From the IMG/VR virus record IMGVR_UViG_3300029448_000051, positions 1-26,897 of that record: a stretch of 26,897 nt of DNA, one strand, 5' to 3'. Below are positions 735-26,897 of this stretch, piece by piece (position 1 is the stretch's first letter; each line of letters opens with the position of its first letter). Under the pieces are notes generated by a model. It had not been told where the DNA came from. It saw only the letters and a list, made by a program, of their open reading frames with translations, and made no database searches. A program made the position numbers and the translations under genes. This DNA is from a virus.

Positions 735-1207
735 TGGCTACAATGACAGTAAGTATTAAAGAAGCTGTAACCATTAATGGTAAAGACCAAGGTGGAACTT
801 ATGCTGGTTTTACTACAACAATAACACAAGTAGAAAAAAGACTGCTTAATGCTACAACTACAGAAGTAACATTGTATGAAACTGCTGCGGCACAAAATGA
901 TGCAGAGGACCAAGCATATGGAGGAGCTGCTTGGGATCATGATTCAGTAAAGTATGTAAGAATAAGTAATTTAGCAGGTAGTAGTAATTTTATATACATT
1001 ATTGTTCAAAACAGTGCTAGTGATGAAGCAGTTTTTAAAATTTACGGAACAGAATCATTATTGCTATATAGGCATACAGGAACATTTGAAGCTGTAGCAG
1101 GTGCAGCAACTGCAAGTAATGTAGCTGATATTCAAAAAGTAAGTATACAAGCTGATACATCTACACAAGCAGTTGAATTATTTCTTGCTAGTAATGATGC
1201 AGCATAA
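734..1207 (+). CDS. Phage structural protein, paralogue A (decoration/minor capsid type)
   Basis: A 157-aa Ala/Thr/Ser-rich acidic protein predicted to be mostly beta strand. The N-terminus (xVSIKEAVTINGKDQGGTYxxF) matches that of the next gene almost residue for residue. Both then share TQV (about 30-33), a TEVxLYxTA block, a xSxKYVRIxN block near the middle (about 73-82), an ExxLL element, and a C-terminal ELFLAS/EVFIAS end. Short proteins with this NGKD opening recur among virion genes of marine phages. A capsid-surface decoration or head-tail role is plausible but is inferred from position and composition. It starts with GTG, fixed by the SD at 721-727. Confidence 0.65.
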   Translation: MATMTVSIKEAVTINGKDQGGTYAGFTTTITQVEKRLLNATTTEVTLYETAAAQNDAEDQAYGGAAWDHDSVKYVRISNLAGSSNFIYIIVQNSASDEAVFKIYGTESLLLYRHTGTFEAVAGAATASNVADIQKVSIQADTSTQAVELFLASNDAA

Positions 1208-9369: not shown

Positions 9370-9665
9370 TGAAAGCATCTGATATAATAATGAGTCAATC
9401 TAACAATACTACAAGTTTAGATTTTAGTGCATTTAGTTCTATGCAAGAAAATGATTATTTAGAATTAAATATTAATAGCATATCAATAAAATTAAATGTT
9501 AGTAGTAATATGTCTACAAATGATTTTACAGAATGGTTAGCTAGTAATTGTAATAATAATTATGATTTTTATAGCATAGCAACTGCTAGTAGCAATAATG
9601 CTATCTTAAGCATAGTAAATAAAACATCAGATCAATTGAGTGTTGATTATGATTTTAACAGATAA
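9369..9665 (+). CDS. 98-aa Asn/Ser-rich hypothetical protein
   Basis: I start it at ATG 9369, which overlaps the preceding TAA (9367-9369) like most junctions here. An in-frame ATG at 9351 would overlap the adhesin gene by 19 bases and is less likely. The protein is rich in Asn, Ser and Ile with alternating beta-type strands (YLELNINSISIKLNVSS, NNAILSIVNKTS) around a short helix (TNDFTEWLASNC). It has no TM segment, metal cluster or recognised motif. It closes the fibre group and precedes a 71-bp gap, so it is probably an accessory fibre or chaperone-like protein. The function is unknown. Confidence 0.5.
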   Translation: MKASDIIMSQSNNTTSLDFSAFSSMQENDYLELNINSISIKLNVSSNMSTNDFTEWLASNCNNNYDFYSIATASSNNAILSIVNKTSDQLSVDYDFNR

Positions 9666-9670
9666 AAGTA

Positions 9671-9699
9671 TTGCATATATTGTATAGATATAATATATT
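9671..9699 (+). promoter_or_regulatory. Candidate sigma70-like promoter
   Basis: The 71-bp gap between fibre genes and ejection-protein genes (9666-9736) is the longest non-coding space after the start of the window. It holds TTGCAT (9671-9676) and TATATT (9694-9699) separated by exactly 17 bases, and it is followed 25-31 bases later by the SD AGAAAGG (9724-9730) and ATG 9737. AT-rich sequence makes such matches easy by chance, so this is a weak call. A phage-specific promoter could also sit here. Confidence 0.35.
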
Positions 9700-9736
9700 A
9701 CATAGATTAAAAATGTTATTTTTAGAAAGGTAAAGT

Positions 9737-10591
9737 ATGGCAAAGTATCGTTTTGGTGGTGGAGCAAGTGCAGGTGATGTTCTATTGGCCGTAGATAAAT
9801 CAAGAGAAGATTATAAAGAATTAAAGGCTTATGAAGATTATTTAGCAAAACTAAGAAGAGATGCTAAAAAGAAAAAAAAGAGTGGATTATTAGGATCTGT
9901 TCTAGGAGCTGTTATTGGATTTGCAACAGGTGGTATAGGAACTGCTTTACTTGGATACGGAGTAGGAAAAGGAGCTGGTACTGCTGCTGAAGCTTTTAAT
10001 GATTTAGATAAAAGTAAAAGAGAATTAAATAAACATGTTTGGAAGGGTGGCAAATTTAATCACAAAAGAACTACTTCATTGCGAGATATGTTAAAAGAAG
10101 ATGCTAAAGAACAACAAAAAGCTGATTTAGTAAATGTTGCTTTAGATGTTGGAACAGCTGCAGTGGGATTTAAGGGAGCAGGAGGTCCTTTAAGCGAAGC
10201 AGCAAAAAAAGAATGGGGTGATTTAACATTTAGGGAACAATTAAAAACTTTAGTTTCTCCTGATAAAATGGTAAATGCTAGAGTAGATGAAATGGGAAAA
10301 GATGTACTAAGTCAAGAAGGTCAAGCTACATTAACTGAAATGTTAGAACCTAAAAATTTATTTGGAGGTAGTTTTACTCCTTTTAAAGGAGGAGCAGTAA
10401 GAACTATTTTTGATATGGCAGGTATGAATCAAGCAGTAGGTAAACAAACTGCTACTGATATAGGCAAACTAGCTGCATTAATTAATGCTAGAGAAAGTCT
10501 AGGAAGAGGTGACACTGACTTATCTCAATATTTATTACAGACTTTTTATAATTCTGATGGAAGTTCAAAAAAAGAAATTACACCGAGGTAA
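9737..10591 (+). CDS. Gly-zipper internal virion/ejection protein (T7 gp14-like in type)
   Basis: A 284-aa protein. Residues 18-48 are a charged, lysine-rich helix ending KKKKK. Residues 49-80 are a glycine-zipper hydrophobic hairpin (LLGSVLGAVIGFATGGIG, then LLGYGVGKGAG), the kind of segment that inserts into membranes in small podovirus ejection proteins such as T7 gp14. A second helical, Ala/Gly-rich segment is at about 132-150 (VNVALDVGTAAVGFKGAGG). SD AGAAAGG (9724-9730) supports the start. It opens the block of internal-protein genes after the candidate promoter. It probably travels in the virion and helps form the channel across the host envelope; homology to gp14 is by character, not alignment. 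Confidence 0.6.
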   Translation: MAKYRFGGGASAGDVLLAVDKSREDYKELKAYEDYLAKLRRDAKKKKKSGLLGSVLGAVIGFATGGIGTALLGYGVGKGAGTAAEAFNDLDKSKRELNKHVWKGGKFNHKRTTSLRDMLKEDAKEQQKADLVNVALDVGTAAVGFKGAGGPLSEAAKKEWGDLTFREQLKTLVSPDKMVNARVDEMGKDVLSQEGQATLTEMLEPKNLFGGSFTPFKGGAVRTIFDMAGMNQAVGKQTATDIGKLAALINARESLGRGDTDLSQYLLQTFYNSDGSSKKEITPR

Positions 10592-10594
10592 ATA

Positions 10595-11341
10595 ATGCCA
10601 GATTTTGAAGAAGGTTTAATAGATTTAAGCTGGGACTCTGATACACAGGAATTTTCTAATACAGCAAATACTGTTGATATAGGAGAAGCGTATTATAATT
10701 TAGATCCTTCTGCAAATACAGGCTCTAGTATGTTTTGGTATGATATATTACAATCTTATTTACCAAATGAATCTGGTACTCAGTATGAAAGTTTATATCA
10801 TTATAATGAATTTATGAATAACTATAGTCAATATTTACCTGATAATTATCAACTAGGAACATCTAGATTAGAAAGAGGTAATAGATTATCTCAGCAGGGT
10901 AAAAATATATTACATAATGAATCAGTTAATGCAGCTTCTTCTGAAAGATTTAAAGGTGGAAGTAGTGGATTTGCTTCAAGTGGAATGCAAAATCAAATTG
11001 GTTCAGACATTTGGTCTAATTACACTAATGCAGCTATAGCTAGGAATATGAATCAAGAAGAAATGCAAGAAGGAGTATATTCAGAAATGGGTCAATCTGT
11101 GTTAAATCAAATGGCAAATATGAGTGAAGATGGTTATTTTACTAATGAAGATTCTGATTTTAACGCAGAGGCTTATAATCAGTTAAGCGATTCGGAAGGA
11201 CTTAATACTCCAGAAAGTTGGAATGAATATTGGGAAACTACTGAAGGTAATGAATGGATAAATACAATGCAAGATTTTTGTAGTAACCCTGATAATCAAG
11301 GTTCTGAATACTACAGTATGTGCTCTGGGTTAGGATTTTAA
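10595..11341 (+). CDS. Acidic internal virion protein, paralogue A (SGF motif)
   Basis: A 248-aa, strongly acidic protein (Asp/Glu/Asn/Ser-rich). Three parts are visible. An N-terminal region holds the block SYLPNESGTQY...NNYSQYLP (54-82). Two long helices (about 91-118 and 131-175) are joined by the hairpin GGSSGFASSG (121-130). The acidic C-terminus contains several Trp/Tyr residues and two cysteines (near 229 and 243). The next gene repeats the same order, so the two are tandem paralogues. Helix-SGFxxS-helix hairpins resemble those in podovirus ejection or internal proteins. GAGG (10585-10588) before ATG 10595 is the likely SD. An ejection role is inferred. Confidence 0.55.
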   Translation: MPDFEEGLIDLSWDSDTQEFSNTANTVDIGEAYYNLDPSANTGSSMFWYDILQSYLPNESGTQYESLYHYNEFMNNYSQYLPDNYQLGTSRLERGNRLSQQGKNILHNESVNAASSERFKGGSSGFASSGMQNQIGSDIWSNYTNAAIARNMNQEEMQEGVYSEMGQSVLNQMANMSEDGYFTNEDSDFNAEAYNQLSDSEGLNTPESWNEYWETTEGNEWINTMQDFCSNPDNQGSEYYSMCSGLGF

Positions 11342-12399
11342 TGGCTAAACCTGACGATAATTTTACACCAGACCCAACAGGACAATCTTTATGGTCTCAA
11401 TTATTACCTTTTTTATATGATAGTGAAGAAGGGACAATGTATAATCCTGAGTCTTGGCTTGCAGAGTATGGACAATATCTAACTCCTTACGACCCTGAGC
11501 CTGATTCAGTTATTATGGACTCATTAAAGCTAGCTAATCAAGATGCTCAAAATGCTCAATTAGAAAACATTGAAAACATTAGAGCTGGTATTGGATTATC
11601 AGGATTTGATGGTTCATATCTTGGTGATAGAGCAAAATTAGAAAGAGACAAATTTTCATTAGAATTACAAGCTAATTATTCTAACGCTTTATCAGAACAA
11701 AGAGCAGGATTACAAAACTGGCAAAATACTTTATACTCTGATTTAATTAATTTAGGTAATATGGATGCTTTTAATACAGAGAATGTTGAGCAAATAAGTA
11801 ATCAAGATGAAATAGATTACTGGATGGCAGGAGATTATTTACCTCAAAGAGAAGAAGAATTGTTTAGTGCTCCATGTCAATGTCCAGATGGTGGTACGTC
11901 TGTTGCTTGTTGCGATAGTTATGACGATATAGATTACTCACCAGACCCTGCATATAATTATCCTGGAATGGGCTCACTTGAAAGTATGTCTTTTGAGGAA
12001 ATGCAAGAATATTATATGAATAACGATGTTTATGACTCAGAATATGGAGCAAACTTACAATCAATGGTTGATAATTATGGTGGTTCAGAAAACATGCAAG
12101 ATTGGTATAATCAAGCATATAACATGTTTGGTGATTGTGTAGCTGGTTCTCAAACAGAAACAGATTTACAAAGTTGTTATGATATATATGAAAATAGTTA
12201 CCAGTCTGAAATTAATACTATCCAAACTAATGCACAAAGTTTTGCAGAACAACAAGCATATGAAAATTCTTTATTAGAAGATGAGCAACAAGGCCAAGAT
12301 GTAGACATATCTGAAGAAATAGGAGATGATGCAATTGGCGAGATGAGTGATGACGATGATTACAATTATGATGATTATGATGTAGGTGATTACAGTTAA
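11341..12399 (+). CDS. Acidic internal virion protein, paralogue B with Cys cluster
   Basis: A 352-aa protein started at ATG 11341, which overlaps the upstream stop (TAATG); an in-frame GTG at 11320 would lie inside the upstream gene. It repeats the plan of the previous protein: LLPFLYDSEEGTMY...EYGQYL (21-47), then helices flanking GIGLSGFDGS (83-92). A region not seen in copy A follows, with cysteines 179, 181, 190 and 191 in CQCPDGGTSVACC. A long Asp/Glu/Tyr/Asn-rich C-terminus ends in an extreme acidic tail (about 330-352, mostly Asp and Tyr). The Cys group could bind metal or form disulfides in the virion. Probably an ejection or core protein. Confidence 0.55.
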   Translation: MAKPDDNFTPDPTGQSLWSQLLPFLYDSEEGTMYNPESWLAEYGQYLTPYDPEPDSVIMDSLKLANQDAQNAQLENIENIRAGIGLSGFDGSYLGDRAKLERDKFSLELQANYSNALSEQRAGLQNWQNTLYSDLINLGNMDAFNTENVEQISNQDEIDYWMAGDYLPQREEELFSAPCQCPDGGTSVACCDSYDDIDYSPDPAYNYPGMGSLESMSFEEMQEYYMNNDVYDSEYGANLQSMVDNYGGSENMQDWYNQAYNMFGDCVAGSQTETDLQSCYDIYENSYQSEINTIQTNAQSFAEQQAYENSLLEDEQQGQDVDISEEIGDDAIGEMSDDDDYNYDDYDVGDYS

Positions 12400-12998
12400 T
12401 GCATAGTAAAAAACATAATTACAAGATAGGTTCTGGAGAAGGTATGTTTGAGACTAATGCATATAGAAAAAGGCCTACTTATGAAAGAGTTAATAGTTTT
12501 TTAGATGAAATGGGTTCTGATTTTTCAGACCATAATGTGTATTTATGGGGCTCTTGGCCTGATAAAAAACAAACTTGGGATGTAGATTTTTTATTAGAGA
12601 ATCCAGGAGAATTAGACTATGAGCAAATGGAAACTATTTCTAAAAATGCTTTAAAGTCTAGTTTAAACAACAATCAATTTCTTGCTGACGTTGGATATAC
12701 AAATAGGCCTATTGTGCCATTTAATAACTATAGGGATATGTATGCAAGGGGTAAACAACAATCTGCCCATAATGGCTATGTATTTGGCGATAAATGGATG
12801 GTTGATGATAAGTTATACAAAGATAGAACTAAATTTAAAAATGGAGTAGTAATACCAAAATCAAATAATATATTACAGGTTAATAGTTTGATGCCTTACC
12901 CTAAAATGATTAATGCTATAGAAAATAATCAATATGATAAGTATTATGCTAATAAACCTATATTAATTAAAAATAGAAAGAAAAGTTATGGGATATAA
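12399..12998 (+). CDS. Nucleotidyltransferase-fold-like protein (GS...DVD motif)
   Basis: A 199-aa protein. Residues 46-66 read NVYLWGSWPDKKQTWDVDFLL: a strand, G51-S52, eight spacer residues, then D61-V62-D63 in a second strand. This is the core pattern of the DNA polymerase beta-type nucleotidyltransferase superfamily (hG[GS]x7-13Dh[DE]h). A helix (70-89) then leads to the strand FLADVGY (94-100), whose D97 is well placed for the third metal-binding carboxylate. The C-terminal half (about 105-199) is basic and carries no recognised domain. Translation is coupled by TAATG at 12397-12401. It lies among internal virion protein genes, so it could modify nucleic acid or protein in the virion or infected cell, or be an inactive relative. 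The substrate is unknown. Confidence 0.55.
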   Translation: MHSKKHNYKIGSGEGMFETNAYRKRPTYERVNSFLDEMGSDFSDHNVYLWGSWPDKKQTWDVDFLLENPGELDYEQMETISKNALKSSLNNNQFLADVGYTNRPIVPFNNYRDMYARGKQQSAHNGYVFGDKWMVDDKLYKDRTKFKNGVVIPKSNNILQVNSLMPYPKMINAIENNQYDKYYANKPILIKNRKKSYGI

Positions 12999-14445
12999 AC
13001 AGGCTTACGATTTACATGTAAAAAAATTAGCTAATGATCCATTGAGCGTAGCCTTAGATGCATTATATAATATCTCTAGTGCTAAATACAAAGCAGATGA
13101 TAGCATAAGACAAGAACGAGAGATAGAAGAAAAATTTAATAGAAATTTAAGAAGCACAGAAATTAGTAGATTGTCTAGTGCAAACCCAGATATATCTGTA
13201 ACTGATTTTGGAAATCCTATATATAATGAAAGTGATTTTAACGATTATAAAAATGAAATAATAGAAAAGAAAAATTTAAACAAGATGGGCAGTCAATACA
13301 ATCCTATCGATGGTGTTATGTCAAAAGAAGCACAACAAGACATGTTTACTTATGGAGACACTAGATATAGCTTAGATGATACAGAAGGCATATTATCTCA
13401 AGAAGATTTATTTAATTATGATGCTTGGTTATTAGGAGAAAATGGTTACGGAAGAGATGTTGCAAGAAAACATAACCATAGTGGCATTCTATATGAAACT
13501 GTTGAAGATACTGAATCTGCTTACTATGGTAAGTATATATTAGATCAAGGTGATTATTTTGATTTAAGAGAAAAAGGATTATTGTCAGATATGATACCAG
13601 ATGCTTCAGGTAATTATATACTAGATGAACAAACAAGAAATGGTATTATAAAAAAATATAATTATTGGAGAGAAGGATTTGTTTCTTCTAGGTCATTACC
13701 TAATAAAAGTCAATTATCAAATTTAATATCAGATGAAAATACTAGAGATTTGCAATTTGAAAATGATTTAAGAGAAAATAAGAAATATGAAGGCGTGTTT
13801 GATCAATTAGATAATTGGAAAAATATACTCAATCCAAATACAGATGGACCTAGTATTATAGATGAAAATGGTGACTTTTCAGCAGACTATTTAGTTGATG
13901 GTGAACTTGTAAATGAAGCAATCAAACCAAAAGAGTTTATGGAAAGATACCCACTAGTATACAATTGGATGAAGAGTAATTTTACTATTGAATCATTATT
14001 TCAAGACATTAGTAGTAATGAAGACTTACAAACGCAATTAGCAGAAATACCTAATATTAAAGAGTATTTTTATCATTTATTTGGTCAGTTACAAAGTGTA
14101 GAGAGTGAAAGAAGAAAAGCAGGAATAGGCGTAAGTCAATATCAACATTTAAATAGTTCAATGATTATGGGCGAAGCTAGAGATAATGTGTTAAATGATT
14201 TAACTTCTAGCGAACTATTTAATGGTGCTCTTTATGATGAAAAAAGATTTAATGCATTAGATGCTTCTGAAAAGAAACTATTAATATCAAGATTGCGTGA
14301 CTTAGAAGCTCAGTATGCTGATAGAAATAGTTTAAATTATAGTCCAAACTCATTGCAGTTTTTATCTTTATATGGCTATGGAGATGGAGCAACTATGCCT
14401 GGTGCAGCTTTGTACAATCTAACAAAAGAATTGAGAGGTAAATAA
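12988..14445 (+). CDS. 485-aa putative internal virion protein, unrecognised
   Basis: The start overlaps the upstream gene by 11 bases (ATGGGATATAA). The protein is charged, mostly helical and without TM segments. Features visible: a lysine-rich N-terminal helix (about 5-55), a coiled, highly charged stretch near 40-60 (RQEREIEEKFNRNLR), an acidic mid-region rich in Asp/Tyr (100-230), and C-terminal helices (about 330-430) with long EKKLLISRLRDLEAQY. No catalytic motif is seen. It is set between ejection-type genes and the giant polymerase gene, so a virion core or ejection role is most likely. The comparable slot in T7 is held by gp15, but no sequence similarity to gp15 is evident. Confidence 0.55.
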   Translation: MGYKQAYDLHVKKLANDPLSVALDALYNISSAKYKADDSIRQEREIEEKFNRNLRSTEISRLSSANPDISVTDFGNPIYNESDFNDYKNEIIEKKNLNKMGSQYNPIDGVMSKEAQQDMFTYGDTRYSLDDTEGILSQEDLFNYDAWLLGENGYGRDVARKHNHSGILYETVEDTESAYYGKYILDQGDYFDLREKGLLSDMIPDASGNYILDEQTRNGIIKKYNYWREGFVSSRSLPNKSQLSNLISDENTRDLQFENDLRENKKYEGVFDQLDNWKNILNPNTDGPSIIDENGDFSADYLVDGELVNEAIKPKEFMERYPLVYNWMKSNFTIESLFQDISSNEDLQTQLAEIPNIKEYFYHLFGQLQSVESERRKAGIGVSQYQHLNSSMIMGEARDNVLNDLTSSELFNGALYDEKRFNALDASEKKLLISRLRDLEAQYADRNSLNYSPNSLQFLSLYGYGDGATMPGAALYNLTKELRGK

Positions 14446-15875
14446 TGGCAATGGATGACGAAATACAAGAATTGTTTAATGTTGCAGAGATTGAAACTCT
14501 TGGTGAATCTAAAATGGATAGTACTAAAAACGCTGAACTAGCAGAAGTAAATAGATTAGCTAAAATAGATAGTTTAATACAAGATAGTACTGACCAAGTT
14601 ACAAAACATTTAAAAGATTATACTACAATAAAGGAAATAAATTTACTAGATAGTCAATTTAAAGATGAACAACCAATGTCTATATTGTTTACTAATGAAG
14701 ATTATCAAGGTAGAAGTGAAGCAGAATTATATTCTTTATTAGAAGAAATGGTTGTGCATGAATCTACTACAAATGTTACGGATGATTATAAAAGATTTAA
14801 TGTCCTTAGAGAAGATTTAGTGAACGTACACAGTCCTTATCAATCTGCTTTTACAGGAGGAACTTCTGACGCTGGATATGGCAATATGGTTCAAGGTACT
14901 ATACCAGGAGAAACGTCACCTAGAGATATATCAGAAGATGATTCTTTAATTAATATAGGTAGTTATCTTCAAGGAGCTAATAGTATTGATGAAATGTGGC
15001 CATCTGACACTAAGCATAAAACTACTGGTGGTGCATGGTATGAATTAGGAGGTTTAAAAGGTGGAGGAGTTATGTTAGACCAAGATGAATTTTGGGAAAC
15101 AGACCCTCATGACTTTAGAAGTGCTACTATAGCTAGAATGGTTGCAAGTGATCAAGGTATTAGAGATTTAGTTTTAGGAAGTCATAAATTTAATCAAACA
15201 ACAAATAAGCATGAAATAACTGGTGGTATACTAGAGTTAATTAAATCTTTCGGATTGACTGGAGAATCTAATACTTGGGAAAGTATGAAAGAATTTGTTG
15301 GATTTAGGTCTAATGCTATGAAAATAGTAGATATGGCTTTAGAATCTAAAAAAGCAGGTAGAGATTATTTTTTAACTGGTAATTACAATAGTGAAAACAG
15401 TCCATTTGAAGTAGGAACACGATACCATCGCTCTGGAATTAGTAGAGAAATGCATGATAGGCTATCTAAGTATCCTGAATCTCAAAGAAAAATTATATTA
15501 GAAACATTACAAGATGCTGTAGATACAATATATGCTAAAGGATTAGCAATTGAAAAGCATGCTAATAATCTTGTAGATGAGTATGAGTCTTATGCTAAAA
15601 AGTTTCCAAATCAAAAAGGTTTAAATTCTACACTTCAAACTAATACTGCAAATAAAGATTTAGCTAAAGCTCAGCAATATAAATCTGATTTAGTTAATTC
15701 TATTGATGCTTATAAAAGTGTCTCAGGAAAAGATTTTGATGTTTATGAAGCATTAAATGCTCTATCTATGACACAATTAAATGAAGAGTTAGATAAGATT
15801 CCAGATGAGTCAAGAACACAAGCTGTTGATGATTACCTAATACAGTTAACCGAAAATACAGGCGCAGCATACTAA
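14445..15875 (+). CDS. 476-aa putative internal virion protein, unrecognised
   Basis: Starts at the TAATG overlap at 14443-14447; ATG 14451 is an alternative two codons on. Residues 1-85 are helical and acidic with repeated short EIxELF/AEVNRLAKID-type stretches. The middle has a Gly-rich patch (GGAWYELGGLKGGGVMLDQ, about 193-211) followed by DEFWETDPHDF. The C-terminal third (about 320-476) is long amphipathic helix, likely coiled coil. There is no membrane segment or catalytic motif. It ends 10 bases before the giant polymerase gene and is probably co-translated and packaged with it. No function can be assigned from sequence alone. Confidence 0.55.
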   Translation: MAMDDEIQELFNVAEIETLGESKMDSTKNAELAEVNRLAKIDSLIQDSTDQVTKHLKDYTTIKEINLLDSQFKDEQPMSILFTNEDYQGRSEAELYSLLEEMVVHESTTNVTDDYKRFNVLREDLVNVHSPYQSAFTGGTSDAGYGNMVQGTIPGETSPRDISEDDSLINIGSYLQGANSIDEMWPSDTKHKTTGGAWYELGGLKGGGVMLDQDEFWETDPHDFRSATIARMVASDQGIRDLVLGSHKFNQTTNKHEITGGILELIKSFGLTGESNTWESMKEFVGFRSNAMKIVDMALESKKAGRDYFLTGNYNSENSPFEVGTRYHRSGISREMHDRLSKYPESQRKIILETLQDAVDTIYAKGLAIEKHANNLVDEYESYAKKFPNQKGLNSTLQTNTANKDLAKAQQYKSDLVNSIDAYKSVSGKDFDVYEALNALSMTQLNEELDKIPDESRTQAVDDYLIQLTENTGAAY

Positions 15876-15885: not shown

Positions 15886-18800
15886 ATGAGTCTAGAACAA
15901 GATTTAGCTCAATTTTTGGCTAGAGATGAGAAAAGAAAAACTCAGCTAGGACAATTACCACAAGGATCATCTACTGATCAAATACTTCAACAAGAAGAAT
16001 TACCAGTTCAAAATTCAGTTTATTCTAATGCGTTAATGAATAGTGCTGTAAATGCAGATAGAGGTCCTTTAGCAGAGTTTGTAGGTGAAATGGCTTGGGG
16101 TTTTGCTGATGAATATACTTTAGGTGGTCTTGGCATGGCTGAAGAATATGATTGGCTTGAAAGGTCTACAGGTTCAGAGAAGCCACAAGAACTGTTAGAA
16201 GGTTTTAGAGACTTAGCACAAGGCGGTAAAAGATTAGTTGACCCTTTAACAGGTGAGTCTTTTAGACCAGGGCCTGAAAGTTTTGCAGGAAAACTAGGTG
16301 GCGGTATAGGTGTAGTAGGTGGTTTTATATCAGGTGCTCCAGCAAAAATATTAAAAGTTGGTGGAAAAGCATTAACATGGGCTACTGCAAAAGCTGGCAG
16401 AAAAGCAACCTTTGCTAAGACTTTAAAAAATATACAAAAAGCTACTACTCCTTTAACAAGCTCTGACCCTGCTGCCCAAATTTTTAATAATGCTTTACAA
16501 GGCGGAGTTTCAAGAGCTGTTATTAATGCTGCTAAACCAGGAATTTTAAATAATACAGATAATTTTGTAGCACATGTTAGTTCAGGGATTAAAGGAAGTA
16601 TAGATGAAGCAGTAGAATCTGGTTTATTAAATAGAAAAACTGCAGAATCTATCGGTGATGTTTACACTAAGTATTTATCAGATAGACCTCTAACTTCTAT
16701 GATAGATTATTTTACAACAAATGCTACAAATTCTAGGTTAGCATATACAGTTGGTGCTATAGTTCAAGAAGGCTTGCAGTTTGGTATATTAGATGGTATT
16801 AGAGCTGGAGTGCATGTTGGATTTGGCTTAGATGATAAAAATCACCATGAATATGATTTAATGGAACCTGTATGGGGTTTAGGTATTGGTGGTGCATTTG
16901 GTGCTTTAAAATGGATGAGACCTGCAGGTAAATCTGCATCAGGTCAAATAGACTTTAAATCAGGTATAAGGGGTCAATTAGCTACAAGTTCTAAATTACT
17001 TAAAAAAGATAGCTACCAAACTTTAAAAACTAAAACTGAAGCTCTTGGAGCTGATGCTAAGGTCTTAGGTCAGCAAGTACAAACTGTAAAAGTTTTAGGC
17101 AAAGACTATTCATTTGATATGACTAGTGTTGAATCTGAAGTAGTAAGAATATTAGATGCAGCAGGTTTAAAAGCAACAAGTCAAGCTAAAGGAGATTTAG
17201 TAAGAGAAGTATTAGCAAAAACTTCTAATAAGTATGGTAAAGAATTAATTAAATGGGCTGGTAAAAATGAATGGGCTAATGTTGCTGAAAATTGGCCTAA
17301 GATGGTTTTAGGTGCAGGTATTATGAATGCTAGACTATACTACGATATGTATAATGGAGAAAATGTTGGTACCGATGATTTAATGGTTAATGTATTATTA
17401 GGAGCTTATCTTAATAGACGTGGTACACCAAGAAGAACAGATATGTTTCCAGAGCAAATACAAAGATTGCGTTCTGGGTTACATACATTAGGTGTTTTAC
17501 CTCCTGAGTACATTCGAACTAACCCATTTAGAGTTATGCCTACATTAGACCCAGCTAGAAGCAGCTCAATGAATCCTTTTGCATCTGATATAGAATTAAA
17601 TAAAATTGTAGCTCATGCTGAAAAACTTGGTTTTACAACAAATAATTTCGATAAGATAGACACTCCAATTAGTAAAGAAACTTCTCCAGGAATGTTTGAC
17701 TTTACAACAGGCTATGGAAAAAGATCTGTAAATCAGTCTGGAGAACCTTTACCATTGTTTCATGAATTCTATAGATTTTTAGAAGGAGCTGCAAATAAAA
17801 AGTATGTTAAAAATTTAGACAATATTTCTGAATCAGCAGCAAAAGAAATAGAAACAATGCTTCAAAAGAAGTTTAAAGATGAAGCTGATATGAAAATGTA
17901 CATGCGTAAAGTTGTTGATAATGCTGGTGATAGATTTGAAAACGAAATTGTAGGTGCAACTGTAGATATGATGAAAGTATTAGGTCAAATTACAGGTGGT
18001 AAAGGTGATGGTACTATTGGTAAAATACCTTCTACAATTACAATTAGTGAAACTATTATTAAAGCTGCAGAAGAAGGTAAGCTTCATAATTATATAGAAG
18101 AGTTTAGAGGAGTACAAAATCAAGCTGATGCTTTAAGAAATTTATTAAAAAAAGCTAACATTATGGTTAATACAACTTTTGAATTAATGAGAGCTAATAA
18201 AAAAGAAACTGACCAAGCATATATTATTAAAGATTTTGCTCAAATTAAAGCAATGAGAGATGTTATAAACAATAGAGAAATTGCTATTAATAATGAGTTA
18301 GGTATTAAAAATGATGCAAGTAATAGATTCCAATTTGAAAATGCTTGGCAAATGACTACATATTTAAAAAATAGAATAATGAACAAGAAAGCTAGTTCAT
18401 TTTCTAAATTACTAGATAGAAACTTAGAAGTTAATCAAGATGTATTTCAAGCATTGTTAGATTCTGGATTATTACAAGCAGATGGTTTAAATTTAAATCC
18501 TAGAAGAATTGGAAGTCTTGAACAAGTAAAGCTTGTAGACAATAATTTTGTTTCCATTAAAGACCCTAAACTTGTTGGTGATAGTCAAATGTTTTTAAAT
18601 TCTATATTAGAAGTATTAGGAGCAAAAGGACAATATGGTGTATCAGAAGCTCCTGTTAATATTACAGTATCTCAAATACAAAGATTAAAATCATTCTTAA
18701 ATAGCAAAGGTCTTAATGTAGATCCTGCATCTTTATCTATGTTCTCTACAGAAACAGTAAGAAGAATAACATTTCAAAACTTTAAAGATTCTAAATTAAC

Positions 18801-21800
18801 TCAAGAAAATGTAGGTGTTTTTCAAGCTTTATCTTCTTTAGGTGGATTAGAAGACACTGGTCAAAAGTTTCATTTAATGAAATATAGTAGAATTAAAGAT
18901 GGAAGACCAGTAGGAATATTAGCAAGTAAAATAGCTTATGAAGGTTCTACTGAATCAATCAAAGAAATTGTTAAAGAATATAATTCTTATGTAGAGTCAA
19001 TGAAAACTAATGGAAAAGTACAAGGAAAGAATGAAAGTTTTGTATCCGAAGGTCAAACATTTACTATTACAAATGAAAATACTTTTTTAACTATTCAATC
19101 ATTATTATATGATTCTATACATAAAACTAATGGTAGTGCTAGAAAAGAACTTATGGATTTTATGCTTTCAGATATAAGCAAAAGTAAAGCAAAAGATGCT
19201 ACGCTTACATTTATGTCTGCTTATCCTGAAAAAACGTCTAAATTAATCAAATTAATGATAAATAATGGTACTTTAGAACTTAAAAAGAATGACGGAAGTC
19301 TTGATGGCACATATGAGTATTATGTTAATAAGGAGAAATTTGGAAGAAAAGATATACAAGACAAAATAATCAGTTTTATAGAAAGATATGGTATTAATCT
19401 TGATACTTTAGAAGTTATGACATCTAATGCTGAAAAACATTTAGAAACTTATCTAGAAAATACATATGGAGTAGGAGATCATAAAGCTGGTATTACAGTA
19501 GACAAGTTTTTCCAATCTTATTTACCAAATAGTCAAAGAAGTCCTGAAAAAATGAATGATTATTTAACTGATAAACTTTTTGATATAAATAATAACTTTA
19601 GAGGTTATGAAGCTATCAATGATATTATGACTGAAATGACTATTCCTAGAGGTAAAGAACAAAGAGCTTATAATGATATTATACAAATATTATCTAATAA
19701 GATTCAAGGAAGCACAAAGAAAGTATTTTACTTTTCTGATGGTGAAGTTAAAGTTAAGGACACAGATTTAGCAACTTATAAAACTCCTTATTTTACTATG
19801 TTAGATAAATTAGGTATTAAATATGCTCTAGTTGATGGCATGTCACATGATTGGGTTTTACATCCAGATACTAATAGACTGTTATATCAACCATTAGATA
19901 TATTTCAAAATGAGTCTAATATCATAGGAAGAGCAGATAAAAGAATGATTCAACAAAGACGTGAATTGTTTATGGATATGTTATCTAAAAAAACTGATAT
20001 AGAAGGTTTTGAATCAGGTTTAACTATGATTGATATGCCTGGATTAAAAATGTCATTAGCTGTAAGTAAAGCAGATGTTAATGCTATTAAAACAGCTTAT
20101 AATGAAATGTACACTAGACAAATTAAAAACACAGAAGAGGGTAGTTTAAGTAGAAAGAAATTAGAGTTTTACAAAAAAAGATTAGAAGAAAGTGTAAGTG
20201 TAGATGATTTAGCAAATCCTATGGCATTACAAATGATGATTGCAGAATCTATGTTTGTAGGAGCTAATAAGAATGAGTTTATTAAATATCTTGAAATGGG
20301 TCCTGGTAATGCTGATTTAAATAAAATGTTTGTTGGTAGACAAAAGTTATTTAATACAATGAAATTTAAAAGATTAGATAAAGATTTATTACAAGCAATG
20401 CAAGAGTCTAATATGTTTAGTAATTCTAGCTCAGAGTATAGACTTTTAGACAAATATATTAAAAAGAATAAAGTTGGAGTTACTGTTTTTGATGATAGTT
20501 TAGGTAGTTTTAATCTTAAACAATTATTTGAAGCAGAAAATGGAACAGGTTCTTGGCAAAAATATTACGGAGATAGAGCTAAAGAATCTTCTCATGATAG
20601 TATTAGTTTTATATCTAAAGAAATGGCAGATTTTTTAGGAATAGCATATGGAGCTCCAGGTTCTAGGGTTTTTAAACCAGTCATTAGTTCTCAAGGAGAA
20701 GGAAATTTAATGTATGGTAAAACAGAATTTGTTTATGACCCTAAAATGGATGCGGTATTTAAAGCAAATCCAGGTTTAGATATATTAATGGCTGCTAGTG
20801 CAGAGAAATTAAAATTATATCAAAATAAAGATTTAAATAATGTTGCAAGTGAAATGTTGCAAGTAGAAAGAGAGTCGTTTTATACTACAGGAAAATTTAA
20901 TAGTAATAAAATTATTGATATACCTTTAGAAGCAATAGGTATACAGAAAATACCTGATCACTATACTCCAGGTAAAATATCACCTAGTGTTCTTAATACT
21001 CATACAGATATTGATTTAGGTAAAAATCTATACAATGATTATTTTGCTGACAATTTAGCTAGAGCTTCAAAAAATATAACTGAAATATTGAAAAATCCAT
21101 TCATTGAATATGAAATGATGAAACGTATAAAAGAAGGACAAACTACTGGTAAATATGAAGATTTAGAATTGCTAGACAGTTATGATGCTAATAGTAGTTT
21201 GCAATTAGAATGGTTAAAAACTAGTCCTTATGCTTCTATTGATGTATTTGGACCTGGTGCTAAAATGAATCCACTAAAAGCAAGGTATTTAGACCAAGCA
21301 ATGGCACCTAGTACAGAGTATATGTTTAATAACAAAAGATATAGATTTGGTGGTAAATCTACCATCATGCAAGATATGAATACAGCTTTAAAAGGAACTA
21401 AATTTAATCCAGAAACAGGAGAAATAGAGCGTTATGGAGAGATTATGCTGCCATATGATATAGGAGCAGAAGGTATAGATTTTGCTAGACGTAATTATGA
21501 TGTTAGAGTTATTAATAACAAAACTAATAAAGTAGAAAAAGCAGAAGATATATTTAACAAACTTGGCGGTTCAAAAACTTTTACATATTCAGATATTATG
21601 CAAAGTGCTAAACCTTTAGAAGCATTGTTTAATGTGTTTGAAAGAGGTGCTTTAAAAGATTATGATATTGCAATATCTACTATGAGATTTCCAAGAACAA
21701 GACCTAATGATTTAGCTTTATTAAGATTAAGAGGATTTAATGATAAAGGTTCTGGCAATGTAACTAAAGTAAATCCGTTTGATGTATATAATATATTTGA

Positions 21801-24513
21801 AGGTGATTATGATATTGATGCAGTAGATTTTACTTGGGCTGGTAGTAAATCTTGGTATGAAAATATTAAACGTGCTAACAAAGTATTTGTTCCTACAGCA
21901 GATGCAACTAAAACTAGTGAAATATTACCTGAAATTGAATTAGGTTCATTAAATCCTGAAAAAGCTAGCAGAGAATGGAATGCTTTAAATGGAAATCAAA
22001 GAGCTTTATCTGGAGCTAGAGGATTAGTCCAGGCTACTTCGGCTTTAGTAAAACACGCAGATAATATTGCTGCTACTAAACTAAATCCAGATAGAAGTAC
22101 TAGAAAGGTTTTATTAAGAAATCCTAATAAGAAGGAAGGAGAAATAGGTTATTGGGAAGTAGAAATGGATTGGAATAATGGAGATTTTCATTTAAGACAA
22201 GCATTAGAAGGCCAAGTATTACTAGATGCCTCTTCTCCTGATCCTACTTTATTAAACAAAGTTAAAGATTGGAGATATGATTTTCTATTTCCTGAATATA
22301 ATGTTGACCCATTACTAAATAAAACTCTGTCTAAAGACAATTTTATAAATACAGATGGTTCATATAATACAACAAATTTAAGAGCTTTTATTAATGGTAA
22401 AAAGAATAGTGATGGCGAGTATGCTAATCATAGAGTAAGGTTATTTAGAAGATTTGAGTATGTATCAGAAAATGGCAATCTTGTTAAAAAAGAAGTTAAA
22501 TTACAAGAGCTAGATAAAGATTTAATTAAAAATATATTTAGTGAATACTCTAAACTATTAGAAGTAAGTCCTGGTAGAAAAGTTTATGGCAATAATGGTA
22601 GTAGTAAAAATGCAAATTATGAAGATATATTAATTAGAGGAGAAAGATACTTTACTAACGCTAAAAACTTTAGAGGCAATCAATTTAATAAAATCAACTA
22701 TAAGAAAGAATTTGACGAATTTCGTAAAACTGAATATTATAAATACAGTCAAAGTGTTAACTCTATGCTAGGTAATCAATTTATGGATTATTTTGCTCCT
22801 AAATCATTTAAATATACAGATGCTAAAGGCAATGTTAAATATGATAAAAAGAAAAAGTATGCTACTAAGTCTCCATTTGCTTCTGGAGTTGAACAAAATA
22901 TGAGAGATAGGTATGACGGTGTTCAGGGAGGTGTAGTAGAAAGATCTATAAGAGAAATATATATGAAAGACCCTCTTAATACATTACATACAGACACTAA
23001 AGTTTTAACTAAAGATTCTTTTATTAGACAAGAAAATCTTGCAAATGAAATACTGCATAATGATAATATGAGTATTCAAGAAATGAATAACTTTATACCT
23101 CAATTAATAGGCAATATCAATAAAGATATATCAACTATTAAAAGATTGCAATATCAATGGGTTCAGTTAAATAAAAGTAGATTTAAAGGCAAAAAAGCCA
23201 AGATGGATGAATTGAATAGACAAATTGCAGAATTAAAAGAAAAAATTAAACCTTTATTAGGTAAAGCTTATTGGAAGAGTAGAAAAATAAAAGATGCTGA
23301 CAGGTTTAACTTAGTAGATATATCAAGTGATAAAAATATTATTGATGGAACAGTACAGTATTTTACACTAGGTAATTTAGCTAGAGCTTTTCCTATGAAT
23401 AAAAATGCTTTTGGTTTTAAATCAGACCTTAAAGAATTGAGAACTTTCATAGGTTCTAATTATGCTGGTCAAAGAGATTTGTGGGGATATGGTAACTACG
23501 GAAGAAAAACTATTGCTACTGATGAAGTTAAACAAAGAATGTCTGAAGTTAGAAATACTAAAGAAATAGAAACAAGAGCAGATGAAATGCTTGCTAAGGC
23601 TGTTTCTAAGCATGGTATTGCATTTTTATGGGAATTTGCTATGCCAAGCTCAACTAGCATGGAAAATAAAATAGGAGTATTTAATGGTAATGTTATGCCT
23701 GTTGCAATTAATCCTAGTGGTAATTATAAAAGAGCTATTAGGTATCTATTAAAAGGCAAAACAGGACAATTAGACCCATCGGTATACCAAAGAACTAGTC
23801 GAGATCAATTTAAAGCTGTTTTAGAAGGATTAGCTGAAGTTGATTTTACTTGGAGAAGATTTTTTAATGGTCAAAATAATTTTATGCCTCTTGATGCAGC
23901 AGAAGTATCTAAATTAATTACATATCAAATGCCTAAATACTCTTGGAAAATGAATAGCATGTTCAGTAAATATACAGATATTAAATCTGATAAAGAGTTA
24001 AGTCAATTTAATCCATTTGGAATGGGTAAAAAATATGATATGAATATTGCTTTCTTTAGATCTTTATCTAACTTGGATAAATCTGTAAATGGAAAAACTT
24101 TTGAAGACGGAACTAGTATACTCTCTTATACTAATCAATTAATGATGGAAAATGGTTATCTTACTCCACAAAAACATTTAGCTCTTATGGCTGATATAAG
24201 CACTAAATTAGGACCTATGATGGAAAGAGTATTTCCTAGTACTGTAGATATACATACAGGCGTTGCTCAACCATTAAGACCTTTTGATATGTTAAACAAT
24301 CCTATGTATATTTTACTAGGTGGAAGTCATATGAGTGGTTCTGGTATGAGTTTAGACCCTTGGAAATCAATGAGTCCATATGAAAAATCATCTGTTAATA
24401 AAATGTTACGACAAGTAAATGATATGAAGAATACAAAAAAAGATGTTTGGCATGAGTCATTTTTTGAAACTGATTTAAGATTAGATGTTAATAAAAAACC
24501 AGAGGAGTGTTAA
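15886..24513 (+). CDS. Giant virion protein with a single-chain, two-barrel (DPBB) DNA-dependent RNA polymerase core
   Basis: A 2875-aa protein. The N-terminal part (1-350) looks like an ejection or polyvalent protein: FADEYTLGGLGMAEEY (73-88), a Gly-rich hydrophobic segment (137-165), and further Gly/hydrophobic stretches (286-310, 326-343). Residues 350-1500 are largely helical and unassigned. The polymerase core follows. Barrel 1: D1571 (HDSISFIS), then K1597 (VFKPVIS), G1611-K1612-T (YGKTEFVYDP) and D1632...S1638-x-x-K1641. Barrel 2: R1934-x-P1936, L1948-R-G1950-F, N1963-P1964, then D1974-Y-D1976-I-D1978, matching the order R-x-P...G...hP...NADFDGD of cellular beta'. The order beta-like then beta'-like on one chain is that of crAss-like phage virion RNAPs, YonO and QDE-1. 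Residues after 2010 (ALSGARGLVQATSALVKH) may hold the bridge-helix area; this is a guess. The role inferred is injection with the DNA and transcription of early genes. Confidence 0.75.
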   Translation: MSLEQDLAQFLARDEKRKTQLGQLPQGSSTDQILQQEELPVQNSVYSNALMNSAVNADRGPLAEFVGEMAWGFADEYTLGGLGMAEEYDWLERSTGSEKPQELLEGFRDLAQGGKRLVDPLTGESFRPGPESFAGKLGGGIGVVGGFISGAPAKILKVGGKALTWATAKAGRKATFAKTLKNIQKATTPLTSSDPAAQIFNNALQGGVSRAVINAAKPGILNNTDNFVAHVSSGIKGSIDEAVESGLLNRKTAESIGDVYTKYLSDRPLTSMIDYFTTNATNSRLAYTVGAIVQEGLQFGILDGIRAGVHVGFGLDDKNHHEYDLMEPVWGLGIGGAFGALKWMRPAGKSASGQIDFKSGIRGQLATSSKLLKKDSYQTLKTKTEALGADAKVLGQQVQTVKVLGKDYSFDMTSVESEVVRILDAAGLKATSQAKGDLVREVLAKTSNKYGKELIKWAGKNEWANVAENWPKMVLGAGIMNARLYYDMYNGENVGTDDLMVNVLLGAYLNRRGTPRRTDMFPEQIQRLRSGLHTLGVLPPEYIRTNPFRVMPTLDPARSSSMNPFASDIELNKIVAHAEKLGFTTNNFDKIDTPISKETSPGMFDFTTGYGKRSVNQSGEPLPLFHEFYRFLEGAANKKYVKNLDNISESAAKEIETMLQKKFKDEADMKMYMRKVVDNAGDRFENEIVGATVDMMKVLGQITGGKGDGTIGKIPSTITISETIIKAAEEGKLHNYIEEFRGVQNQADALRNLLKKANIMVNTTFELMRANKKETDQAYIIKDFAQIKAMRDVINNREIAINNELGIKNDASNRFQFENAWQMTTYLKNRIMNKKASSFSKLLDRNLEVNQDVFQALLDSGLLQADGLNLNPRRIGSLEQVKLVDNNFVSIKDPKLVGDSQMFLNSILEVLGAKGQYGVSEAPVNITVSQIQRLKSFLNSKGLNVDPASLSMFSTETVRRITFQNFKDSKLTQENVGVFQALSSLGGLEDTGQKFHLMKYSRIKDGRPVGILASKIAYEGSTESIKEIVKEYNSYVESMKTNGKVQGKNESFVSEGQTFTITNENTFLTIQSLLYDSIHKTNGSARKELMDFMLSDISKSKAKDATLTFMSAYPEKTSKLIKLMINNGTLELKKNDGSLDGTYEYYVNKEKFGRKDIQDKIISFIERYGINLDTLEVMTSNAEKHLETYLENTYGVGDHKAGITVDKFFQSYLPNSQRSPEKMNDYLTDKLFDINNNFRGYEAINDIMTEMTIPRGKEQRAYNDIIQILSNKIQGSTKKVFYFSDGEVKVKDTDLATYKTPYFTMLDKLGIKYALVDGMSHDWVLHPDTNRLLYQPLDIFQNESNIIGRADKRMIQQRRELFMDMLSKKTDIEGFESGLTMIDMPGLKMSLAVSKADVNAIKTAYNEMYTRQIKNTEEGSLSRKKLEFYKKRLEESVSVDDLANPMALQMMIAESMFVGANKNEFIKYLEMGPGNADLNKMFVGRQKLFNTMKFKRLDKDLLQAMQESNMFSNSSSEYRLLDKYIKKNKVGVTVFDDSLGSFNLKQLFEAENGTGSWQKYYGDRAKESSHDSISFISKEMADFLGIAYGAPGSRVFKPVISSQGEGNLMYGKTEFVYDPKMDAVFKANPGLDILMAASAEKLKLYQNKDLNNVASEMLQVERESFYTTGKFNSNKIIDIPLEAIGIQKIPDHYTPGKISPSVLNTHTDIDLGKNLYNDYFADNLARASKNITEILKNPFIEYEMMKRIKEGQTTGKYEDLELLDSYDANSSLQLEWLKTSPYASIDVFGPGAKMNPLKARYLDQAMAPSTEYMFNNKRYRFGGKSTIMQDMNTALKGTKFNPETGEIERYGEIMLPYDIGAEGIDFARRNYDVRVINNKTNKVEKAEDIFNKLGGSKTFTYSDIMQSAKPLEALFNVFERGALKDYDIAISTMRFPRTRPNDLALLRLRGFNDKGSGNVTKVNPFDVYNIFEGDYDIDAVDFTWAGSKSWYENIKRANKVFVPTADATKTSEILPEIELGSLNPEKASREWNALNGNQRALSGARGLVQATSALVKHADNIAATKLNPDRSTRKVLLRNPNKKEGEIGYWEVEMDWNNGDFHLRQALEGQVLLDASSPDPTLLNKVKDWRYDFLFPEYNVDPLLNKTLSKDNFINTDGSYNTTNLRAFINGKKNSDGEYANHRVRLFRRFEYVSENGNLVKKEVKLQELDKDLIKNIFSEYSKLLEVSPGRKVYGNNGSSKNANYEDILIRGERYFTNAKNFRGNQFNKINYKKEFDEFRKTEYYKYSQSVNSMLGNQFMDYFAPKSFKYTDAKGNVKYDKKKKYATKSPFASGVEQNMRDRYDGVQGGVVERSIREIYMKDPLNTLHTDTKVLTKDSFIRQENLANEILHNDNMSIQEMNNFIPQLIGNINKDISTIKRLQYQWVQLNKSRFKGKKAKMDELNRQIAELKEKIKPLLGKAYWKSRKIKDADRFNLVDISSDKNIIDGTVQYFTLGNLARAFPMNKNAFGFKSDLKELRTFIGSNYAGQRDLWGYGNYGRKTIATDEVKQRMSEVRNTKEIETRADEMLAKAVSKHGIAFLWEFAMPSSTSMENKIGVFNGNVMPVAINPSGNYKRAIRYLLKGKTGQLDPSVYQRTSRDQFKAVLEGLAEVDFTWRRFFNGQNNFMPLDAAEVSKLITYQMPKYSWKMNSMFSKYTDIKSDKELSQFNPFGMGKKYDMNIAFFRSLSNLDKSVNGKTFEDGTSILSYTNQLMMENGYLTPQKHLALMADISTKLGPMMERVFPSTVDIHTGVAQPLRPFDMLNNPMYILLGGSHMSGSGMSLDPWKSMSPYEKSSVNKMLRQVNDMKNTKKDVWHESFFETDLRLDVNKKPEEC
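21805..21819 (+). other. Codons of the predicted RNAP catalytic loop D-x-D-x-D
   Basis: Encodes D1974-Y-D1976-I-D1978, preceded by YNIFEG and followed by AVDF. In the family the three aspartates hold the catalytic Mg2+ ion. Cellular enzymes have DFDGD; here Ile replaces Gly between the second and third Asp. The call rests on the motif plus the matching upstream R-x-P and N-P positions, not on an alignment. Confidence 0.75.
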
Positions 24514-26897
24514 ATGGGTTGTATGCCATCAAAAAGACATCAGGATATATATAATTTAGGTAAAAAGTTTATGAATGAACCTGAAGTTAAAGCTATATTT
24601 CAAAATCCTAGTGAACTTGTATATAAAAAATACCATCAAATGTTTGGATTTAAACCTAGTGAGTGGAAAGCATTCCAACCTACAGGTGCAGATGTTCGTA
24701 AGTTTAAACAAGAAATGAAGTATATGCTTAAACAGATTAAAAAAGACAAAATAGGTGGTGTGCTTGCATCTAATATATATACTACTTCAGGAGTAGTAAG
24801 ACGTAATCCTATATTGGCTACATTGTATGATGGCTTTTTAAATGTTAATCATGCATTTAAAGGTAGACAAATTATTGGAGACCAAGATTTTAGTAAGATT
24901 TTAGGTTCTTTAAAAAACGAAGCTACTGTTACAGGTATGTTATCAGAATCTGGTACTTTTAAAAAGGCAACTAAGAGAGCAAAAGATTTAGAATCTAACA
25001 TAGAAAGACTTTTAGTTGATGAACAAAACAATATCCCAGGAACAGATAAAAAATTAGCAGCAGCTATGGGTAAATTAGATCAATTCTTGTCTAAAGGAGA
25101 AGGGAAAATATTTAAAGATTTTGTAGAATTAATAGAATCTAAAGACAAAGGCTTAAGGTCTATTCCTGCAGTTCAAGATATAGTAAAAGATAGATTAGGT
25201 AAGAATTTAAATTCTGGTAATATTAAAGATATTAAAAATGCTATTATTAACTCAGGCATTACACAATCTGCTAATATGCAAAATGCATTAATTAAGTATG
25301 TAGATGTTATGCATTCTCAGTATAATATATTAACTAATGGAGTCAATGCATACATTAAAGGTCAACAAGCTGCATTATTAGCTAAAGGTATTACTGATGT
25401 AAAAGCATTAGAAGAAGTTAGAGTTAAGTTATTAGAAAAGTTTTTACCAGATGAAAAAGCTGGTTATTTCCCTCACTTTAGATATGATTTGAATTCTTTA
25501 TTTTTAGATAATTTAATGCCTAAAATACAGAAGCTATCAGAAAGTACAGAAATGGGAAAACAAGGCGGAATAGATGCCGCTATTAAAGAATTAGACGTAT
25601 ATGTATCTTCAAGAGTGAAAAAGAGAACTAAAAACTTAGATAGTAAAATGTATTCTATGAATTTTCCAGTAGTTGTTAAAAGATATATGGATGAAATAAA
25701 TAGATTTAACTTTGTTGCACACACACAGCAATATACTATGGAATCTTTAATGCAAGCAAAAAAAGCTTTTAAACAAGGTAAAGATTTAGAAGGTTATGGG
25801 TCTCAGTTAGTTGAAATGATTAAAGATTTAAATCAAGCACAGATGGGGACTAAAGATATTAGAAGTGATTTTTTTAGAAATAGTAGTAGAGCTTTACTTA
25901 ATTTAGAATTTGTATCAAAACTTGGTTTTAACATGAGATCTGCTGCTAGAAACGCTACTCAAGGACTATTAAACTTTGTAGAGTTTGGTAGTTTAAATAT
26001 GAAAAAATCTCGTGACTTCTATAGAGATGAGCAAATGTCTCGTTTAGTAGATAAAGCTATGGATGAGTCTGGTATAAGATTTACAGAATTAACTCCTGAA
26101 CAATTAGAAATTGCTGGTAAAAATGTATTTAATGAAAGAGTACAGTTTGACTCTGGTGGTGAGATAACATTTAAAAACCCATCTAAAATGTCACAGTTTG
26201 CTGATTTAACTGGAAGACTTGCGAGTGTTTCTGGTGGAAAAACATTAGTCCCTTATTTAAATATGAGAGGTATAGAAAACGCTAATAGAAGGTATACATA
26301 TCGTTTAGCTTTTTCTAAAATGTATTCTGATTTAAAGACAAACGATGGCTTTAGACAAGTTATGATTGAACAATTTCAAAAAACTAGAAAACGTGATATA
26401 TCATCTAAAGAATTTGATGCAGAGTTATTTAAAAGGTCTAAAAACTATGCTGAAAGAATGACTACTGCTTTACATTTTGATTATTCTACTGTATCTAAGT
26501 CTAAATTAATGCGTTCTCCTGTTGGTAGGTTTATGTTTCAGTTTCAACATTATGCTCATAAGTTTGCTGAATATAATTTTGGTATTATGAGAAATGCAAA
26601 AAATTCATTAATGGCTGGAGAAGTAGGTTTTAATACTGAATTAGGAAAAGCCTATAGAATGGGATTAGTATATGCAATAGGCCCAGCTATGATTAGTGCA
26701 ATTACTAAAAATGATTGGTTTAGAATGATTCAACATGATACAGCTTCTAGAATATCTCAATGGTGGACTTTATTTACTGGTGATGAAGAAGATTTTCAAA
26801 ACGCTACATATGGCAGAGGAGCTATAGGTGCATTATTTGGATTTCCAGTATTATCTGATGCTTTAGCATTAGGCGAGTTATCAGAACTTTGGGATCT
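24514..26897 (+). CDS. Second giant internal virion/ejection protein, 3' end beyond the window
   Basis: The reading frame is open from ATG 24514 to the last base: 794 codons with no stop, so the true protein is longer. GAGGAG (24502-24507) lies six bases before the ATG, which immediately follows the RNAP stop. The N-terminus is MGCMPSKRHQDIY. The protein is mainly helical and basic. Notable blocks are LGFNMRSAARNATQGLLNF (470-488), RSPVGRFMFQFQHYAHKF (about 667-684) with the aromatic AEYNF, and a hydrophobic segment MGLVYAIGPAMISAI (716-730). The 'LGFNxRxxxRNxxQ' helix and FxFQFQHY block are of the type found in giant phage ejection/polyvalent proteins, possibly the LPD group; this is from memory, without a search. 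The M-G-C start has no signal peptide, so it is not a lipoprotein signal. It probably acts with the RNAP as part of the injected core. Confidence 0.65.
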   Translation, partial: MGCMPSKRHQDIYNLGKKFMNEPEVKAIFQNPSELVYKKYHQMFGFKPSEWKAFQPTGADVRKFKQEMKYMLKQIKKDKIGGVLASNIYTTSGVVRRNPILATLYDGFLNVNHAFKGRQIIGDQDFSKILGSLKNEATVTGMLSESGTFKKATKRAKDLESNIERLLVDEQNNIPGTDKKLAAAMGKLDQFLSKGEGKIFKDFVELIESKDKGLRSIPAVQDIVKDRLGKNLNSGNIKDIKNAIINSGITQSANMQNALIKYVDVMHSQYNILTNGVNAYIKGQQAALLAKGITDVKALEEVRVKLLEKFLPDEKAGYFPHFRYDLNSLFLDNLMPKIQKLSESTEMGKQGGIDAAIKELDVYVSSRVKKRTKNLDSKMYSMNFPVVVKRYMDEINRFNFVAHTQQYTMESLMQAKKAFKQGKDLEGYGSQLVEMIKDLNQAQMGTKDIRSDFFRNSSRALLNLEFVSKLGFNMRSAARNATQGLLNFVEFGSLNMKKSRDFYRDEQMSRLVDKAMDESGIRFTELTPEQLEIAGKNVFNERVQFDSGGEITFKNPSKMSQFADLTGRLASVSGGKTLVPYLNMRGIENANRRYTYRLAFSKMYSDLKTNDGFRQVMIEQFQKTRKRDISSKEFDAELFKRSKNYAERMTTALHFDYSTVSKSKLMRSPVGRFMFQFQHYAHKFAEYNFGIMRNAKNSLMAGEVGFNTELGKAYRMGLVYAIGPAMISAITKNDWFRMIQHDTASRISQWWTLFTGDEEDFQNATYGRGAIGALFGFPVLSDALALGELSELWD

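Follow-up and report, generated by a model that had tools for sequence, protein, structure and literature searches.

A giant protein of 2875 residues, encoded by the penultimate gene of a late structural operon, is probably (about 0.8) a single-chain two-barrel DNA-dependent RNA polymerase (RNAP) of the gp66/QDE-1 type that is made late, packaged, injected and used to start early transcription. The virus record has 55,595 bases, and the window, which is the whole stretch of DNA analysed here (26,897 nt), covers its first half. The core of the protein, at about residues 1284-2478, is predicted from a structural model to share the fold of the virion RNAP gp66 of phage phi14:2, and its catalytic residues are absolutely conserved across the family (Table 1).

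Table 1 Features of the giant RNAP gene and its neighbours (window positions, all on the + strand)
Feature	Position	Basis
Late gene of 485 aa ahead of the RNAP gene; product possibly a cargo or ejection protein	12988..14445	inferred from position
Late gene of 476 aa adjoining the RNAP gene on its upstream side; product possibly a cargo or ejection protein	14445..15875	inferred from position
Giant ORF, 2875 aa, probable single-chain two-barrel RNAP with large N-terminal extension	15886..24513	ORF translation, homologues
N-terminal extension, residues 1-1283, mostly alpha-helical in the model	15886..19734	AlphaFold2
Modelled RNA polymerase core, residues 1284-2478	19735..23319	AlphaFold2, Foldseek
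Basic motif, consensus K-x-x-K-R-x-K-L, here G1484-R1485-Q-K-L	20335..20385	family consensus, alignment
First barrel (DPBB-B type): S1568, D1571, G1589, K1597, K1612, K1641	20587..20865	conservation, gp66 alignment
Second barrel (DPBB-A type): R1934-x-P1936, D1942, G1957, N1963, Asp triad	21658..21885	conservation, gp66 alignment
Putative metal-binding triad D1974-Y-D1976-I-D1978	21805..21819	invariant 71/71
Candidate bridge helix, two consecutive helices, residues 2024-2061	21955..22068	position only, inferred
Conserved downstream gene, possible partner of the RNAP	24514..26895, cut by window end	adjoins giant gene

Relatives of the giant protein

As a query against IMG/VR, the giant protein retrieved only two relatives, at 75-77% identity. 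BLAST against 50,697 phage records gave no match, and neither did tblastn of five family members against phage records, in which cultured phages were unmatched; a scan of genome contigs for relatives found none. Since the giant protein itself found few relatives, the portal protein of the same phage, a bait blind to the RNAP motif, was used instead, and it recovered at least 221 relatives among IMG/VR contigs. In all 15 examined records of this set with a length of at least 36 kb, a giant protein is encoded whose Asp triad, DxDxD, stands at the corresponding position. Complete copies are about 2870-3060 aa long; one other is truncated by the end of its contig, and runs of N lie at or near the breaks in another two. 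Three further scans with sub-family alignments added about 110 loci, nearly all of which are matched by a whole-protein hidden Markov model, mostly over most of the length. Across the relatives, the homologues span about 2750-3210 aa, and 19 of the 25 records checked in the wider RNAP family encode a P22-type portal.

Two apparent variants were set aside. A two-subunit RNAP in loci L100 and L101 was dropped because runs of N lie at or near each break. Such runs split the giant gene or its neighbour into seemingly separate genes in these two loci and in L004 near 2490-2530, where the gene that follows the giant in the present phage is disturbed in the same way. A 104-kb contig (IMGVR_UViG_3300030451_002683; G051, loci L165 and L212) carries two different giant RNAPs and could be taken for one phage with two such enzymes, but it also holds two portals and is thus probably two phages joined in assembly. 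Separately, a roughly 4400-aa 'structural protein' of Flavobacterium phage Fpv1 (L231) matches gp66 (E 6e-22) and contains DYDID. The Fpv1 record does not assign the phage to Crassvirales, and Fpv1 is likely another carrier of a virion-type RNAP.

Conservation of the catalytic residues

The initial annotation picked out D1571, K1597, G1611-K1612, R1934, P1936, G1950, N1963-P1964, D1974, D1976, and D1978 as marks of two catalytic barrels, and all of these residues are at the positions it gave. A DxDxD motif is expected by chance about 0.7 times in a protein of 2875 aa with 6.3% Asp, so the motif in a single sequence proves little and its conservation carries the evidence. We counted conservation over 71 non-redundant cores with identities down to about 12%. 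The cores were excised around D-x-D-x-D, so this step would have overlooked any member lacking the triad, a bias that does not apply to the 15 records selected through the portal.

Nine residues are invariant in 71/71 cores: K1597, K1612, K1641, P1936, D1974, D1976, D1978, G1851, and D2114. Conservation of the three Asp residues among relatives, a test set beforehand, is therefore complete. D1537 and D1966 (each 70/71) and N1963 (69/71) are near-invariant, and G2046 is retained in 59/71. An alignment of 15 rows leaves just 32 near-invariant window columns, among them D1537, S1568, K1597, K1612, K1641, P1936, N1963, D1966, and the Asp triad. While the two lysines, P1936, N1963 and the triad of the earlier list stood, four of its residues vary: position 1571 is Asp in 56 cores and Asn in 15, position 1934 is Arg in 62 and Ala in 9, G1950 is Gly in only 43/71, and P1964 is Pro in only 5/71. 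The conserved glycine is G1957 (65/71), and the third invariant lysine, K1641, was absent from that list. Two hallmarks of two-barrel RNAPs are found, namely an invariant DxDxD in DPBB-A and conserved lysines (K1597, K1612, K1641) in DPBB-B.

The triad itself occurs elsewhere in the family as DFDGD, DYDGD, DFDLD, DYDAD, and others, and its surroundings vary (EGDYDVDK, QDADFDLDKS, HQRDFDGDH). The latter two recall the cellular NADFDGD, and each of the DADFDLD and HQRD types groups in a supported clade.

Predicted structure of the core

AlphaFold2 modelled residues 1284-2478 with the family alignment at a pLDDT of 83.9 and a pTM of 0.81, and this confident model bears out the proposed kinship in fold. 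In a Foldseek search of the PDB, the top match was 6VR4, the phi14:2 virion RNAP (E 1.5e-9, probability 1.00), followed by five QDE-1 chains (5e-6 to 2e-5) and then by cellular RNA polymerase large subunits (7e-4 at best). The best matches among viral models were unnamed proteins, one of them 75% identical, and then crAss proteins. The model is consistent with a two-double-psi-barrel fold, with the barrels assigned through the fold match. The whole chain superposes only loosely on 6VR4 (TMq 0.33, rmsd 20 Å, 1332 columns), so the comparison is limited to the core; such a low TM-score is expected for a flexible multi-domain chain over 1300 columns. Directly after DPBB-A, two helices assigned by DSSP (model residues 741-759 and 761-778) form the candidate bridge helix.

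The high rank of QDE-1, which copies both RNA and DNA, would suit a primase or an RNA-templated polymerase of the QDE-1 type instead of a promoter-driven DNA-dependent enzyme. However, the closest match is a DNA-dependent virion RNAP, and the early block has its own gene for a primase/DnaB-type helicase, while the giant gene sits in the late operon. We consider the primase or RNA-templated reading very improbable.

Profile comparison with crAss-type RNAPs

We used hhalign to compare residues 1480-2160, as a profile, with a profile built from eight crAss-type RNAPs. The match is significant (P 6e-7, Prob 92) and places the DxDxD motif on gp66 D1361-D1365. Taken singly, the DPBB-A part scored 4e-5 and the DPBB-B part 1e-3; none of 60 column shuffles reached the score of either barrel, and the reversed profile came nowhere near. 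The full core gave one colinear alignment of 844 columns covering both barrels, which are arranged in one chain with B before A.

In the profile comparison, D1571, G1589, K1597, K1612, and K1641 match the crAss invariants D962, G980, K1012, K1027, and K1065 of gp66, and R1934, P1936, G1957, D1974, D1976, and D1978 match R1322, P1324, G1345, D1361, D1363, and D1365. Both the Lys and the Asp groups proposed at the outset thus fall on conserved crAss positions. The spacings in the giant protein and gp66 are 18 and 18 residues (D-G), 15 and 15 (K-K), and 38 and 37 (P to the first D of DxDxD). The basic motif that precedes DPBB-B aligns with the invariant K893-R894 of gp66.

Of the relatives that had been named, gp66 is supported by both profile and fold and QDE-1 by fold, but YonO, as a single sequence, has no detectable match. 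The single sequences of P23-45 gp96 and gp64 also gave no hhalign signal. No alignments were built for these three proteins, so the null matches are not counted against a relationship. The Foldseek ranking and hhalign, which favours a family with an alignment, place the giant protein closer to the gp66/QDE-1 clade than to other RNAPs.

These comparisons also bear on whether the motif is a chance occurrence in a structural (ejection) protein that lacks polymerase activity. The chance expectation for DxDxD given above leaves room for this reading, as do the searches at sequence level: Pfam and PHROG scans and PDB sequence searches with protein and profile returned nothing relevant, and RNA polymerase chains were unmatched in a sequence-profile search of the PDB. 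It is already contradicted by the 71/71 invariance, the structure match, and a profile match beyond shuffles, and we regard it as scarcely credible.

N-terminal extension

Residues 60-1255 were modelled with a pLDDT of 81.8 and a pTM of 0.66. The extension matched no PDB entry at E <= 0.001 and has no known fold. Its conserved segments rich in Gly and Ala lie near residues 130-165 and 325-350, and the hydropathy of the giant protein revealed no classical transmembrane helix. The predicted helical fold and the Gly/Ala-rich stretches are compatible with a role in ejection.

Genome setting

The podovirus-type structural setting proposed earlier is supported: besides a terminase, the record encodes a portal of the P22 type (PF16510, E 7e-56) and a capsid protein of the SU10 type (PF17236, E 3e-21). 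The giant gene lies between large virion-type genes, among virion and cargo genes. In the relatives listed, the order is a gene of about 300-510 aa just before the giant, the giant, a gene of 875-971 aa directly after it, and then genes on the opposite strand. In close relatives, an ORF of comparable size precedes the giant, as the 485-aa gene does here. The opposite strand of the record encodes a DnaB-type helicase (primase/helicase, early block) and an Erf-type annealing protein. A promoter search of the early region found no excess of sigma70-like sites (75 observed, 81.6 in shuffles) and no convincing repeated motif, a result that is neutral on host transcription.

An active two-barrel RNAP could also be made late and transcribe phage genes in the producing cell without entering the virion, like gp64 or the non-virion enzymes of jumbo phages. 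Two-barrel RNAPs kept out of the virion are encoded by some phages (PMC10770324), and packaging is here proposed from gene position and precedents. On the other hand, the giant gene is the penultimate gene of the late operon with large virion-type neighbours, its product has a helical extension of 1280 aa, and no second RNAP candidate was seen among the ORFs of the record. P23-45 gp64 is far smaller (616 aa) and is encoded outside the structural block. We therefore consider a non-virion enzyme unlikely and favour a virion RNAP.

Several other genes were observed. Two adjacent, similar proteins of 155-157 aa (window 734-1207 and 1226-1693), which start with TVSIKEAVTINGKDQGGTY and NVTITESCTLNGKDQGGTY, look like a small late protein duplicated in tandem. 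A late-operon gene (L005:12605-13411, +) has a weak match to calcineurin-like phosphoesterases (E 0.006, below the cut-off), and phi14:2 likewise has a calcineurin-like phosphoesterase (g075) among its structural genes. In the early block of L004 (G000:24400-42000), three ubiquitin-pathway-like matches are found on the minus strand (9116-9778, 9778-10704, 12102-12317): a protein resembling ThiF/E1 (PF00899, E 6e-16), a Prok-JAB match that is weak (E 0.004, below the cut-off), and a ThiS/ubiquitin-like protein of 71 aa whose E value (4e-4) falls just short of the cut-off. They may form a phage ubiquitin-like conjugation set. A spore-photoproduct-lyase-like radical SAM protein is also encoded on the minus strand (L004:4517-5380; PF20903, E 1e-24), with a possible role in the repair of DNA photodamage.

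Comparison with known polymerases

The phi14:2 gp66/Crassvirales virion RNAPs share with the giant protein both barrels in a single chain, a common order of the D-G-K-K-K and RxP...DxDxD residues at equal or nearly equal spacing, and a late-block gene near large virion proteins. In contrast to this likeness, pairwise BLAST detects no similarity to gp66, and the present protein has the additional N-terminal extension. Crassvirales genomes are about 100 kb, whereas the records here are about 55 kb, and the MCP, portal and TerL of the present phage are not of the Crassvirales families: the head and terminase PHROGs are phrog_11589, 6547, and 6681 in phi14:2 and phrog_1328, 156, and 38, with P22_portal and SU10_MCP, here. 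QDE-1, a eukaryotic RNAi polymerase that is the second-best fold match (E about 1e-5), is a cellular RNA/DNA-templated enzyme without a phage structural extension.

The N4-type virion RNAP, a member of the T7 superfamily of about 3500 aa that is injected by a podovirus, resembles the giant protein as a large podovirus polymerase but has an unrelated fold. The independence from T7/N4 polymerases that the initial annotation proposed rests on the fold and on a PF00940 (N4/T7-type RNAP) search of 10 genomes of the lineage, which gave no match and whose positive control was silent too.

P23-45 gp96 is likewise a two-barrel RNAP inside a giant structural protein, as PMC10770324 describes. Unlike gp66, neither gp96 nor gp64 was among the 50 fold matches listed. 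The P23-45 RNAP is N-terminal in the tape measure of a long-tailed phage, whereas the present core occupies the C-terminal half in a phage with a P22-type portal.

Proposed role in infection

Packaging in the virion and early transcription by the giant RNAP are suggested by gene position and by the crAss and P23-45 precedents, which make an injected, early-acting RNAP the simplest reading. Mass spectrometry of crAss virions detected the RNAP-associated proteins, whose proposed route is ejection ahead of the DNA followed by refolding inside the host (PMC10172136). In P23-45, a two-barrel vRNAP fused within the tape measure protein transcribes the pre-early genes (PMC10770324). The annotation of the phi14:2 record is likewise a precedent for a virion RNAP.

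By analogy, the giant RNAP would be made late and loaded into the capsid as cargo alongside its neighbours. It would then be ejected into the host, where the helical N-terminus may aid packaging, ejection, or membrane passage. After refolding inside the host, the enzyme would begin to transcribe the opposite-strand early genes independently of the host RNA polymerase. At the active site, D1974, D1976, and D1978 would hold Mg2+, and K1597 and K1612 of the other barrel may act on the nucleotide and the RNA end, as in two-barrel RNAPs.

Discussion

Injected two-barrel RNAPs are known in crassviruses, jumbo phages, and P23-45, and the kind of enzyme described here is thus not new. What appears new is its occurrence in the present lineage with P22-type portals. 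We found no such RNAP for this lineage in the literature consulted; the supplementary survey of PMC10770324 may list the family, so only the occurrence of the enzyme in this lineage is put forward as new.

We also lean, with less assurance than for the enzyme itself, towards a broader reading. A broad, uncultured, non-crassvirus lineage with P22-type portals would carry a crAss/QDE-1-type RNAP as virion cargo in essentially every member, and injected two-barrel transcription would be general among tailed phages, exchanged or inherited across very distant lineages. The present lineage widens the family of single-chain RNAPs, which includes the RNAi polymerases. About 70 diverse sequences define a minimal active site, and members with the cellular-like DFDGD motif are on offer for biochemistry. 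Our results suggest that phages of a large, distinct group supply their own enzyme for transcription instead of using that of the host, and we predict that infection by this lineage would begin without the host RNA polymerase.
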